Of a DNA stretch of 64,000 nucleotides, positions 5,246 to 62,645 are shown piece by piece. A program made the position numbers and the translations under genes. The notes beneath the pieces were generated by a model. It was not told where the DNA came from. It saw nothing but the letters and a program-made list of their open reading frames with translations, and did not search any database. Origin of the DNA: Lota lota (taxonomy: Eukaryota > Chordata > Actinopteri > Gadiformes > Lotidae); assembly GCA_026745465.1 (NCBI GenBank), contig JACYXH010000826.1, positions 4,938,724 to 5,002,723 on the forward strand, read 5' to 3'. How positions within the stretch are numbered: position 1 is the first letter of the stretch; the number at the start of each line of letters is the position of its first letter.

Positions 5246-5267
5246 ATGTCCTATGTTCCCTTCCAAG
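5246..5267 (+). CDS. syngap1: syngap1 coding exon 1 (7 codons plus 1 base), start codon
   Basis: SynGAP is a Ras/Rap GTPase-activating protein of the postsynaptic density of excitatory neurons. The ATG at 5246 has A at -3 and reads MSYVPFQ, followed by one base (G) and a strong donor GTAAGC at 5268. Mammalian SYNGAP1 contains MSYAPFRD at an alternative start, and the Asp codon is completed here by AT at the start of exon 2 (G|AT = Asp). The residue match together with the exact phase match is strong evidence despite the tiny size. An in-frame stop at 5210-5212 with no ATG in between fixes this Met as the start. A longer mammalian N-terminus (MSRSRAS...) is not encoded here. Other promoters could exist outside what I can recognise. 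Confidence 0.82.
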
Positions 5268-12548: not shown

Positions 12549-12939
12549 TGCCACAAGAGCTTGTGCTCATCAAATCTTAATATTTTTAAATATATTTGCT
12601 GGACATGCTCTCCACATTCATACCAAGAGGCCGAACCAACACAAACATAAAGGGGAGGCATCCAGATGATTAGTTCGATTTAGTTACAAAGATAGCAAAA
12701 ACACCCCCCACTCTCATAAACATGGTGTGGCCCAACATCCCTCTTAAGGTATTTGAGTGGTCAACTCTGACCACTCCCCTTTGTCAGGTGAACAAGGAAA
12801 CCGGTTTAGAAGCAGAGGTGAACATGTAAGACAATGAAACAATCATTAAGCCTCAACACGTGCAAAACAACACCGTATTAAACTGAAAGATGATTATGGA
12901 ATCTGTTATAAATCAAATAAAGTTATGAAGGAGCATGGT

Positions 12940-13310
12940 ATAATTACTGATGTGAGGTAAGTCATAATGGAGTTTAGCTGGTCTAGTGAGGTATAACTAC
13001 TGATGTGAGGTAACTCATAATGGAGTTTGGCTGGTCTAGTGAGGTATAATTACTGATGTGAGGTAAGTCATAATGGAGTTTGGCTGGTCTAGTGAGGTAT
13101 AATTACTGATGTGAGGTAAGTCATAATGGAGTTTAGCTGGTCTAGTGAGGTATAATTACTGATGTGAGGTAGCTCATAATGGAGTTTGGCTGGTCTAGTG
13201 AGGTATAATTACTGATGTGAGGTAAGTCACAATGGAGTTTGGCTGGTCTAGTGAGGTATAATTACTGATGTGAGGCAAGTCATAATGGAGTTGGACTGGT
13301 CTAGTAAGAT
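12940..13310. repeat. 53-bp minisatellite, 7 copies
   Basis: Units begin with ATAA(T/C)TACTGATGTGAGG at 12940, 12993, 13046, 13099, 13152, 13205 and 13258, an exact 53-bp spacing each time. Only a few substitutions separate the copies (GTAAGTC or GTAACTC/GTAGCTC, GTTTAGC or GTTTGGC), which implies recent expansion or homogenisation. There is no CRISPR character: units abut without spacers. Confidence 0.97.
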
Positions 13311-29417: not shown

Positions 29418-29662
29418 ATCTGGTGATCTTTACAATGGGAAGATCACCAGATCTTTACAACGGGAAGATCAACATATCTGTATAATGGAAAGATAACCAG
29501 ATCTTTATAATGCAAAGACACCAGATCTTTACAATATGAAGATCACCATTTTTTATAATTGTGAGATCACCAGATCTTTACAATGTGAAGATCACCAGAT
29601 CATTCCAATGTGAAGATCACCAGATCTCTACAATGTGAAGATCACTAGATCTTTACAATGTC
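29418..29662. repeat. 25-bp minisatellite, about 10 copies
   Basis: The unit is GATCACCAGATCTTTACAAT followed by GTGAA. Copies become more alike towards the right end (29560-29660). Each unit carries two GATC sites. Confidence 0.92.
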
Positions 29663-30740: not shown

Positions 30741-32215
30741 AAGGAGAGAGACAGAGTCCCCGGTGGTTCTCTCAGCAGAGCTGATTTCCGTCCGCAAACA
30801 GTGACATGTGTCGAGTAGTATCCGGTTGATAAAAGGGTCGAGGGTCGTTGTCACCAAGACTCTGTGTCAACTGCTGACCTGATGGATACACTGATGCACT
30901 GTCAGCATAATGGAACCAATAAATGATACTGTGAGTGTGTGCCTATTCAAAACTAGTATGTGTGCCTTTGAGAAAGGATGTGCGTGTGCAACTGAGGAAA
31001 TATGACTTGGTAGGACTCCATACAAAGAGTTTAATCAAACAGGAATTACAAATCGTTTTCCTGTAAACAAGGAAGACACAAGGAATATGAGAACCTTTCA
31101 TGTTTGGTTTTATCTAGATCAAGTCAAAGGGTTATTCACGGGAGGCCTCAGAAATACAGCGTGGAATATAACAGAGAAAAGTGTATTTCAAAGTATTGCT
31201 AGTAATCTGGGAGGGTAGTAGCCGGGTGCAGCTTTATGTAACGTAACGTTAGCCACACAATAATGACATGAAATTACGTCTGAGCAGTTTGTACTTATTA
31301 CTATACTATTATTACTATACTTACTTATTATTATTGTACTATTACTCTGTTGCTCACCCCAAAAAAAGTGAATTCTCTATCACAAACGAGTGCACTGATT
31401 TCTGTTGCATGAGACTGATTAAGTATTTTGGGAATCAGTCTCGCCTGGGTTGTTGTTTCCAGGCCATTGGTAGTCTCTTGCCTGTGTCTGATTGGATGTT
31501 TCTTTTTGGCCAACATTCGATCAGGTCAAACGTAAGGGGCACGGACAAGAGTACTTCATGAATTGCCGAATAGGAATAAGTATTAGGGATGACACTAATT
31601 ATTATCATTATATGATAATATCATTATTATCAATATATGCCTGTATGTATTATTCCAATGTATCCATTGCAATTGTGTATCATTGTAGTCCTGAACATGC
31701 ATTTATTAAATACGTTTGTTGTTGGACCGTACAACTAATGTAGAAATGTGTTGTAAAATGTCCACACTACCTGTCAGAAACAATTCAGTGTAAGGTTGTG
31801 GTAATAACACAGTATTGTCTACATTAATGACAATAGTACAGGGAACTACTTTAGGATTCCCTGCAGTGCTCAGTCTTCAGGCACTTTGTGCAGGTGTTAT
31901 CAAATGTGTTCCAACTGTCAGCTGATCCCGGTGTTATTTATGAGCACGTGCATTGGCATGAGCGCGTGCACTTGTGCGTGACCATGTGCACTCACAAGCA
32001 CATGCACATGCCATGTCTCAACCCTGCAACCAAATGTGCCTGACTGATCCTGTTCCTTCCTGCTTCCTTTCCTCTCTTCTTCCTCCCCATCCCACCTCCA
32101 TTTCTCCTCCACCACCCCTCCTCCATTTGTGATCCCCTCCCTCTCTCCTCGCTCTCTCATCCTCATCCCCTCCCTTCCTCTCTCCCCCTCCCTTCCCCCC
32201 TCCGTCACCCTCCAG

Positions 32216-32469
32216 ATGCGAGGTGTGCTGCCCCCCCCTCTTATCATCACCACCGCCATCATCGCTCCCACCTCCCGCCGTTCCACGCTCCCTCCTACGA
32301 CGCACCTGCGCACGAGCGTCCCATCTACGATCGCCCCTCGCACGCCCGTCCTGCCTTCGAACGCCCTTCGCACGACCACCCGGTCTACGATCGCCCCACG
32401 CACGACCCCTGGAACCCTCGTCTCTGCGTGATCTCCGGAAATCAGCTCTACATGTTGGACCAGGAGGAG
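32216..32469 (+). CDS. syngap1: syngap1 coding exon 2: His-rich segment, 4x decapeptide repeat, start of PH region
   Basis: The exon begins with AT completing the Asp codon from exon 1 and ends at GAG before donor GTACCG (32470), in phase 0. The frame reads DARCAAPPSYHHHRHHRSHL, then four 10-residue units containing Y/F-D/E-R/A-P (32296-32415), then PWNPRLCVISGNQLYMLDQE and a final E. Mammalian SYNGAP1 has a single YDRPGWNPR followed by FCIISGNQLLMLDEDE at this point, so the last 20 or so residues are clearly orthologous and mark the N-terminal edge of the PH domain, which helps membrane targeting. The preceding repeats are an expansion. Two other frames are also open across the exon, because of its composition, and lack homology. 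The cytoplasmic protein's Ras-GAP catalytic domain is encoded downstream, outside the window. Confidence 0.9.
32296..32415 (+). repeat. in-frame 30-bp minisatellite, 4 copies, inside syngap1 exon 2
   Basis: Units start at 32296, 32326, 32356 and 32386. They encode YDAPAHERPI, YDRPSHARPA, FERPSHDHPV and YDRPTHDPWN. Every unit is exactly 30 bp, so the reading frame is kept. The fourth unit runs directly into the conserved WNPR of the PH region. Confidence 0.92.
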
Positions 32470-32504
32470 GTACCGTTTTAAACGTACTACCAACATGTGT
32501 GCGC

Positions 32505-33374: not shown

Positions 33375-33765
33375 ACAGCTACTAGCTTCACGTGCCAGCT
33401 ACTATGTTCACGTGGCAGTTACTAGCTTCACATAGCAGCTACTGGCTTCACGTAGCAGCTACTAGCTTCACATAGCAGACACTAGCTTAATCGAGCAGTT
33501 ACTAGCTTCAAATAGCAGCTACTGGCTTCACGTAGCAGCTACTAGCTTCACATAGCAGACACTAGCTTAATCGAGCAGTTACTAGCTTCAAATAGCAGTT
33601 ACTGGGTTCACGTAGCAGCTACTAGCTTCACATAGCAGATACTAGCTTAATCTAGCAGTTACTAGCTTCAAATAGCAGTTACTGGGTTCACGTAGCAGCT
33701 ACTAGCTTCACGTAGCAGCTACAATCTTAATCTACCAATTATTGGCTTCACATAGCAGCTATAGT
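33375..33765. repeat. 20-bp minisatellite with 80-bp higher-order organisation
   Basis: The monomer is ACTAGCTTCACATAGCAGCT-like. ACTGGCTTCACGTAGCAGCT or its ACTGGGTTCA variant appears at 33441, 33521, 33601 and 33681, exactly 80 bp apart. Between them lie the same ordered variants, including a distinctive ACTAGCTTAATCGAGCAGTT (TCTAGCAGTT in the later set). Confidence 0.95.
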
Positions 33766-51548: not shown

Positions 51549-51654
51549 GTTCACCCTCTGCTGATGCGCGAGAGGCGCTCCGAGTCCCACAGGAACAAGC
51601 TCCTGCGGCGAACAGTCAGTGTTCCTGTTGAGGGGCGGCCACATCCAGAGATGG
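51549..51654 (+). CDS. syngap1: syngap1 coding exon 3
   Basis: Thirty-five codons plus one base follow acceptor TGCGCAG. The frame reads [15 protein letters not shown] and then [20 protein letters not shown], ending ATGG before donor GTAAGC at 51655. Mammalian SYNGAP1 has IHPLLIRDRRSES and [17 protein letters not shown] at the same place, directly after the DEDE that ends the preceding exon. This segment continues the N-terminal PH region; the basic RRTVSVP stretch is strongly conserved. The paralogues DAB2IP and RASAL2 lack this N-terminus as far as I recall, which supports syngap1. Whether it is syngap1a or syngap1b cannot be told from the window. Confidence 0.93.
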
Positions 51655-52003: not shown

Positions 52004-53568
52004 CACTGCTCAAAAAAATAAAGGGAACACTTAAACAACACAATGTAACTCCAAGTCAATCACACTTCTGTGAAATCAAACTGTCCACTTAGGAAGCAAC
52101 ACTGATTGACAATACATTTCACATGCTGTTGTGCAAATGGACTAGACAACAGGTGGAAATTATAGGCAATTAGCAAGACACCCCCAATAAAGGAGTGGTT
52201 CTGCAGGTGGTGACCACAGACCACTGCTCAGTTCCTATGCTTCCTGGCTGATGTTTTGGTCACTTTTGAATGCTGGCGGTGCTTTCACTCTAGTGGTAGC
52301 ATGAGACGGAGTCTACAACCCACACAAGTGGCTCAGGTAGTGCAGCTCATCCAGGATGGCACATCAATGCGAGCTGTGGCAAGAAGGTTTGCTGTGTCTG
52401 TCAGCGTAGTGTCCAGAGCATGGAGGCGCTACCAGGAGACAGGCCAGTACATCAGGAGACGTGGAGGAGGCCGTAGGAGGGCAACAACCCAGCAGCAGGA
52501 CCGCTACCTCCGCCTTTGTGCAAGGAGGAGCAGGAGGAGCACTGCCAGAGCCCTGCAAAATGACCTCCAGCAGGCCACAAATGTGCATGTGTCTGCTCAA
52601 ACAGAAACAGACTCCATGAGGGTGGTATGAGGGCCCGACGTCCACAGGTGGGGGTTGTGCTTACAGCCCAACACCGTGCAGGACGTTTGGCATTTGCCAG
52701 AGAACACCAAGATTGGCAAATTCGCCACTGGCGCCCTGTGCTCTTCACAGATGAAAGCAGGTTCACACTGAGCACATGTGACAGACGTGACAGAGTCTGG
52801 AGACGCCGTGGAGAACGTTCTGCTGCCTGCAACATCCTCCAGCATGACTGGTTTGGCGGTGGGTCAGTCATGGTGTGGGGTGGCATTTCTTTGGGGGGCC
52901 GCACAGCCCTCCATGTGCTCGCCAGAGGTAGCCTGACTGCCATTAGGTACCGAGATGAGATCCTCAGACCCCTTGTGAGACCATATGCTGGTGTGGTTGG
53001 CCCTGGGTTCCTCCTAATGCAAGACAATGCTAGACCTCATGTGGCTGGAGTGTGTCAGCAGTTCCTGCAAGAGGAAGGCATTGATGCTATGGACTGGCCC
53101 GCCCGTTCCTCAGACCTGAATCCAATTGAGCACATCTGGGACATCATGTCTCGCTCCATCCACCAATGCCACTTTGCACCACAGACTGTCCAGGAGTTGG
53201 CGGATGCTTTAGTCCAGGTCTGGGAGGAGATGCCTCAGGAGACCATCCGCCACCTTATCAGGAGCATGCCCAGGCGTTGTAGGGAGGTCATACAGGCACG
53301 TGGAGGCCACACACACTACTGAGCCTCATTTTGACTTGTTTTAAAGACATTACATCAACGTTGGATCAGCCTGTAGTGTGGTTTTCCACTTTAATTTTGA
53401 GTGTAACTCCAAATCCAGACCTCCATGGGTTAATAAATTTGATTTCCATTGATCATTTTTGTGTGATTTTGTTGTCAGCACATTCAACTATGTAAAGAAA
53501 AAAGATTATTTCATTCATTCAGATCTAGGATGTGTTATTTTAGTGTTCCCTTTATTTTTTGAGCAGTT
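52004..53568 (+). mobile_element. near-full-length Tc1/mariner (DD34E) transposon
   Basis: The ends are CACTGCTCAAAAAAATAAAG on the left and, on the reverse strand, AACTGCTCAAAAAATAAAGG on the right, each preceded by TA (52002-52003 and 53569-53570), the expected Tc1 target duplication. Terminal repeats match for at least 28 bp with slight differences. Length is about 1,565 bp, typical for Tc1 elements. It carries one transposase gene on the + strand, broken by a frameshift. It lies inside a minisatellite in syngap1 intron 3. Confidence 0.95.
52301..53322 (+). pseudogene. Tc1-like transposase, disrupted by a single 4-bp deletion
   Basis: The start ATG at 52301 opens a helix-turn-helix DNA-binding region ([20 protein letters not shown] and a second PAIRED-like part with RRRGGGRRR). 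The first frame runs to a TGA at 52628-52630. The second frame takes over from about 52603 and continues to a TGA at 53320-53322. It contains LFTDESRF (first Asp), LMQDNARPH (second Asp) and SSDLNPIEHIW (Glu); 34 residues separate the last two, the DD34E signature. Compared with the family pattern the junction lacks part of a Val codon, consistent with loss of four bases near 52600. The catalytic residues are otherwise intact, so the copy looks young. It cannot make full-length transposase as it stands. Confidence 0.93.
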
Positions 53569-62029: not shown

Positions 62030-62645
62030 AATCGTACCCAGGACTGTCCTGACCCACTTCTAGTCCAACCCAGGACTAGAAAAAAGCATGACTAGTTCTG
62101 ATTATATATGATAAATTGAGCTAGGTTAGTGTAAAATAATATTGTCCAGACTAGTGTCTTGATGGTTTACTGGACTAACCCAGAACTATATTAACCTGGA
62201 CTAGTCTATCTGCAGGACTAGAATAACCCAGGACTAGTGAAATTCAAGACTAGAATAATACAGGACTAGATTAACCCATGGCTAGAAATAGTCTATCCAA
62301 AGGCTAGAATAACCCAGGGCTACAATAACCCAGGATTATATTAACCCAGGATTATATTAACCCAGGGATAGATTAACCCAGGACTAGACTAACCCAGGAT
62401 TAGATTAACTCAAGGCTAGAATAAACCAGGACTAGTATAACCCAGGACAAGAATAACCCATGACTTGTCTAACCCAGGGCTAGATCACCTGGGACTAGAA
62501 TAACACAGGACTATGTAATCAAGGACTAGATTAACCCAGGACTAGAATAACCCAGGGCTTGAATAACCCAGGGCTAGAATAACCCAGGACTGTTTTAATC
62601 AAGGACTTGATTGACCCAGGGCTAAATTTACCAAGGACCAGATAC
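62030..62645. repeat. degenerate minisatellite with 15-17-bp AACCCAGGACTAGAAT units
   Basis: More than 25 variable copies of AACCCAGGACTAGAAT and relatives (AACCCAGGGCTAGAAT, AACCCAGGATTATATT). Unit length drifts between about 14 and 20, so the array is old. Confidence 0.9.

Follow-up and report, generated by a model that had tools for sequence, protein, structure and literature searches.

Exon 2 of syngap1 in Lota lota carries an in-frame array of five-residue units directly ahead of the start of the PH domain. Taking its anatomy and origin together, we consider it probable (0.8) that the array lengthens a disordered linker, is tolerated by the protein and is under mild constraint. The array appears to be fairly old and is probably translated. 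The analysis covered a window of 64,000 nucleotides, within which positions are numbered unless a contig is named. The features of the exon are as follows.

32040..32215, + strand: long polypyrimidine tract leading into the exon 2 acceptor
32216..32469, + strand: syngap1 exon 2 (254 nt; phase 1 in, phase 0 out)
32242..32271, + strand: His-rich stretch YHHHRHHRSH
32281..32409, + strand: pentapeptide/decapeptide array FHAPS YDAPA HERPI YDRPS HARPA FERPS HDHPV YDRPT HDP
32410..32469, + strand: first residues of the PH domain, WNPRLCVISGNQLYMLDQEE, modelled at low confidence as a beta hairpin

The basic unit of the array is a pentad of 15 bp (5 aa) with the consensus (Y/H/F)(D/E)RPx, and pentads beginning with Tyr or Phe alternate with pentads beginning with His to form decads. 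The resulting 30-bp repeat at 32296-32409 encodes YDAPAHERPI/YDRPSHARPA/FERPSHDHPV/YDRPTHDP. Its coordinates, frame and four decapeptides agreed, on re-reading of the sequence, with those of the original prediction made from this DNA. The His-rich stretch placed upstream in that prediction was likewise confirmed (PSYHHHRHHRSH). The units had been described there as exact, but they are identical in length only, with pairwise DNA identities of 57-73% over the six pairs (lowest for the first and fourth units, highest for the second and third). The fourth unit, given as YDRPTHDPWN, is encoded as written, but its terminal WN is the conserved PH edge and lies outside the repeat. A degenerate pentad, FHAPS, sits 5′ of the array start given there (32296). 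TRF called the array independently (32295-32407, period 30, 3.8 copies, 76% matches, 2% indels). As in other coding tandem repeats, tandem units with a period divisible by three lie inside an open frame.

Shuffled sequences were used to assess the periodicity. Within the 48-residue stretch SHLPP...THDP, protein identity peaked at lags 5 (0.35) and 10 (0.45) and did not exceed 0.12 at any other lag below 15; none of 20000 residue shuffles attained the lag-10 or lag-5 identity. The best lagged DNA identity of 0.73 was likewise attained by none of 2000 codon shuffles of the exon, for which the maximum was 0.58. Because the units have diverged by 27-43%, low mutability and slow slippage would be expected, and strong length polymorphism of the array is unlikely; the suggestion in the original prediction that the array may vary in length between individuals is weakened accordingly. 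The array region (32266-32415) is CpG-rich, with a GC content of 0.69 and a CpG observed/expected ratio of 1.55; both values are 0.43 for the whole window.

A protein search of the same genome with the 60-residue array peptide gave at least 131 matches at E ≤ 10 (150 of 197 candidates scored). Among those scored, the best match outside the array locus had an E value of 0.003, with identities of 24%-49%, and these matches were taken for other Pro/His/Tyr-rich repeats. Searching PDB with the exon 2 peptide returned 15 sequences at E ≤ 10 (best E 0.25), and the three matches shown as alignments were to His-tags. Pfam detected no PH match in exon 2 alone and gave only a sub-threshold Extensin_1 hit (E 0.0066; 16.7 bits against a cut-off of 105), taken for a match of composition.

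By sequence comparison, the gene in the window is the SYNGAP1 orthologue. The PH edge, WNPRxCxISGNQL, and the next exon match the presumed human SYNGAP1 sequence, and three RasGAP exons that lie 36 kb past the window, around C826:5038837, are 79%, 92% and 75% identical to it. Each RasGAP exon gave a higher bit score for SYNGAP1 than for the presumed human DAB2IP and RASAL2 sequences. The matches at the PH edge, exon 3 and the RasGAP exons bear out the assignment to SynGAP in the original prediction. Three further exons were identified around exon 2.

1393-1914, + strand: phf1-like gene upstream of syngap1, last exon (Pfam Mtf2_C, E 6.6e-10, 1393-1911)
5246..5267, + strand: coding part of the probable syngap1 exon 1 (MSYVPFQ and the first base of the next codon)
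51549..51654, + strand: syngap1 exon 3 (begins in phase 0, securely placed; probably ends at 51654)

Mtf2_C is a family of Polycomb-like proteins. PHF1 presumably neighbours human SYNGAP1; the Mtf2_C gene here fits PHF1, and the neighbourhood would then be conserved. The phf1-like exon encodes long His/Asn and poly-Gly stretches ahead of its conserved C-terminus.

The site at 5246 reads ATG TCC TAT GTT CCC TTC CAA G followed by GTAAGC, a donor in the required phase. It was the best tblastn match upstream of exon 2 to the presumed human MSYAPFR, with an E value of 1.5 in 64 kb that is weak taken alone, and its score with such a donor was attained by 0 of 200 block-shuffled controls. From these seven residues and the donor, 5246-5267 is the probable first coding exon. 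Exon 3 is 83% identical to residues 63-97 of the presumed human SYNGAP1 sequence, and Pfam returned no family for its peptide. The phases of probable exon 1 and of exon 3 fit the phases 1 and 0 of exon 2. Splicing would give a protein that starts MSYVPFQ-D-ARCAAPPSYHHH..., in line with the human N-terminus, which we take to be MSYAPFR-D-VRGPS....

The exon 2 acceptor AG (32214-32215) ends a 176-nt stretch that is 87.5% pyrimidine and contains no other AG. Within exon 2 upstream of 32444, AG occurs only at 32221 and 32315, and on reading the frame neither would keep the entry phase. The frame is open through all 84 codons. The donor GAG/GTACCG (GTACCG at 32470-32475) does not match the consensus at positions +4 to +6 and is weak by eye; with this donor and a polypyrimidine tract of ~170 nt, the exon looks like a regulated one.

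Comparison with paralogous exons indicates that the length is derived. Counted from the split first codon, 65 residues precede the PH Trp in exon 2 of syngap1 in the window, and 22, 20 and 22 residues precede it in the homologous exons of dab2ip (C53), a dab2ip-like gene (C87) and rasal2 (C285) in the same genome, with 21 in the presumed human SYNGAP1 sequence. From the Trp to the exon end there are 20 residues in 5 of 5 sequences, one of them the presumed human one. The exons of the two dab2ip-like genes and rasal2 measure ~119-125 nt, compared with 254 nt here. Each paralogue was named after the RasGAP exons with which it shares a contig and strand; for the C87 gene, three of five RasGAP pieces scored best to DAB2IP and two to RASAL2. 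Because four family members have 20-22 residues before the Trp and the distance from Trp to exon end is constant, the simplest reading of these sequences is that ~44 residues were inserted in the syngap1 lineage of this fish. The original prediction had named, as a result that would refute it, orthologues showing the present length to be ancestral in all vertebrates; no sign of this was seen among the four family members, one of them human.

The genome also contains a more diverged second syngap gene with later exons (G000:C473 6645001-6745000). A search of the 92.6 kb preceding its FLNRRLKGS exon found no equivalent of exon 2 or 3 (best matches E ≥ 0.05), and this gene therefore gave no length comparison. 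It is possibly an ohnologue that has lost the N-terminal PH half.

The window is rich in repeats: TRF listed 122 rows for its 64 kb, and long dinucleotide runs are numerous. The start of an apparent DNA transposon end lies at 52009-52100 (ACTGCTCAAAAAAATAAAGGGAACACTT). Four minisatellites called by TRF lie outside the identified exons, with periods of 20/40/80 bp, 53 bp, 25 bp and 16/32/48 bp.

33376-33761: minisatellite
12937-13305: minisatellite
29425-29661: minisatellite
62169-62642: minisatellite

Codon differences between the pentads lend weak support to protein-level constraint on the array. For the seven pentads counted from 32296 (leaving out the degenerate FHAPS and the incomplete HDP), pN was 0.33 and pS 0.607. 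Pro is kept in 7/7 pentads through the codons CCT, CCC and CCG, and D/E is kept in 6/7 with a pS of 0.89. The residue in fifth position varies freely (pN 0.66, pS 0.48). A ratio as low as that of the pentads arose in 181/4000 neutral simulations on a star and in 247/4000 on a binary tree. For four decads trimmed to eight codons, with WN excluded, the corresponding counts were 696/4000 and 745/4000, which is not significant; decads with all 10 codons gave pN 0.31 and pS 0.43. Among the three forward frames, pN was below pS in the SynGAP frame only and above it in the other two. One offset of the reverse strand also had pN below pS, but it contains stops.

These values bear on the alternative that the array is neutral: slippage or unequal exchange would have lengthened a disordered stretch and left the protein unaffected, and the apparent constraint would be due to chance. 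We regard this alternative as unlikely but worth serious consideration. The repeat-rich surroundings, the free fifth residue, the borderline result for pentads and the non-significant one for decads are all consistent with it. However, the retention of Pro in every counted pentad through three synonymous codons, that of D/E where synonymous differences are frequent, and the excess of pN over pS in the other two forward frames argue for constraint.

An AF2 model of the exon 2 peptide contained strands at residues 69-73 and 76-80, and no secondary structure before residue 69. The exon was modelled alone and with no alignment, giving a mean pLDDT of 65 and a pTM of 0.21; at this low confidence, the model suggests that the hairpin 69-80 is the PH domain start and that the array is unstructured.

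We propose that the lengthened linker began as a short ancestral segment in syngap1 exon 2, with one ...SPYDRP... before WNPR, an arrangement that mammalian SynGAP presumably has at its PH edge. The segment would have grown by tandem duplication, probably in 15-bp steps first and 30-bp steps later, because the identity of the array DNA is higher at lag 30 (0.64) than at lag 15 (0.52). Some 44 codons would have been gained in this way, with the frame and splice phases unbroken. The product would be a Pro/His/Arg-rich disordered tail that runs straight into the first PH strands and replaces a tail of ~20 residues. With a translation start at 5246, it would span residues ~9-72. The protein would tolerate this longer flexible linker at the PH edge, and the Pro and the acidic residue of each pentad would be mildly preserved. 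The tail would display three YDxP motifs in place of the one in human SynGAP, and the extra motifs may have an effect of their own.

The YDxP motifs of the array are YDAP (32296), YDRP (32326) and YDRP (32386), with FERP between, and the three YxxP contexts SYDAP, IYDRP and VYDRP are spaced by 10 and 20 residues. Abl prefers YDxP-type tyrosines, and C3G acts on Rap. A second alternative, which we consider doubtful, is that the array is a multivalent phosphotyrosine dock, in which Src/Abl-family kinases would phosphorylate YDxP and the SH2 domains of Crk/CrkL or Nck would bind. Adaptors, and via Crk the Rap activator C3G, would thereby be brought to a Ras/Rap GAP. The number and spacing of the motifs are consistent with docking, as is the Pro kept in all seven counted pentads. 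According to a review on p130Cas (PMC12071665), YxxP is the type of motif bound in that protein by the SH2 domains of Crk and CrkL, and SH2 domains of Src and Nck are further partners of the p130Cas substrate domain. A Fyn-SynGAP interaction is stated in a further review (PMC7352836), and the title of a 2001 paper cited there names SynGAP tyrosine phosphorylation after ischemia. However, Phe replaces Tyr in a single decad of the four (FERP), which argues against a strict need for tyrosine, and SynGAP-Crk binding was not reported in the titles and abstract starts among the literature matches listed. In a separate literature search, YDRP did not occur among the matches listed. Crk/Nck-type SH2 docking at the array is a reasonable but putative function.

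A bolder proposal, which is very unlikely, is that expansion of a repeat has given a synaptic Ras/Rap GAP of one fish lineage a p130Cas-like YDxP array in its tail. If it were true and the array were phosphorylated, several Rap-activating Crk-C3G units would be recruited to a protein that switches Rap off. The synapses of these fish would then have a tyrosine-kinase-gated Rap balance that is absent in mammals.

Whether the array reaches the protein may depend on the choice of N-terminus. In mammals, according to PMC7754318, SynGAP with the A1/2, B or D N-terminus has a complete PH domain; in variant C, the first 24 PH residues are missing. If fish use a similar set of N-termini, some isoforms would include the array and others would not. 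Extensive splicing of the N-termini of zebrafish syngap1 is described in PMC11266194. It could be supposed that isoforms start downstream and that exon 2 is not normally translated, the repeat being mainly a nucleic-acid feature, as the rodent variant C and the weak-looking donor GTACCG might suggest. This is most unlikely in view of the 84 open codons, phases that fit on both sides, a PH start that is conserved, the counterparts of the exon in three paralogues, and the variants that retain the whole PH domain. An assembly error producing a collapsed or false repeat is scarcely credible: the array is itself a repeat, but its units differ throughout and are hence distinguishable, the frame and splice sites are intact, and a DNA search of the genome found one place.

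SYNGAP1 is described as a major autism and epilepsy gene that is modelled in zebrafish (PMC7719691 and PMC11266194). If a tripled YDxP at the PH domain makes the N-terminus differ among fish lineages, findings about N-terminal isoforms or about how the protein is targeted to membranes may not transfer simply. No repeat in fish SYNGAP1 was named in the titles and abstract starts among the literature matches listed.

Compared with human SYNGAP1 exon 2 and the N-terminal A-type variant, the exon here is alike in its splice phases, YDRP before WNPR and the PH start, and exon 3 and the RasGAP exons are also alike (human sequence and exon limits as presumed). It differs in the 65 residues before the PH Trp, against 21 in the presumed human exon. 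The DAB2IP-like and RASAL2 exons of the same genome share the phase-1 entry (the C87 acceptor was picked by eye), and those of C53 dab2ip and rasal2 begin DVRG or DVKG. The paralogues have WNP or WER at the PH edge, with 20-22 residues before the Trp and neither the array nor YDxP.

The substrate domain of p130Cas (BCAR1) likewise contains repeated YxxP, of which 15 are counted and YDxP is named in the review (PMC12071665). The syngap1 exon has only three such motifs, in a tandem array of 5/10-residue units. As in p130Cas, several YxxP motifs lie in a stretch that is disordered according to the low-confidence model. The Cas-family order, with an N-terminal SH3 before the substrate domain, is not seen here: the gene encodes a RasGAP, Pfam found no SH3 match in exon 2, and the stretch ahead of the array is short. 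Because this is a RasGAP gene without an SH3 match, the likeness to p130Cas would be at most one of working, and no homology is claimed. The polyserine insert in fish MyoD1 (PMC10204381) is also an in-frame low-complexity growth in a fish protein; the unit is a homopolymer there and a degenerate one of 5/10 residues here. As repeat biology, this growth of a disordered stretch by an old expansion that keeps the frame is ordinary and of a kind known elsewhere, and compared with known coding repeat expansions the only special point is its place, at the PH edge of a synaptic RasGAP.
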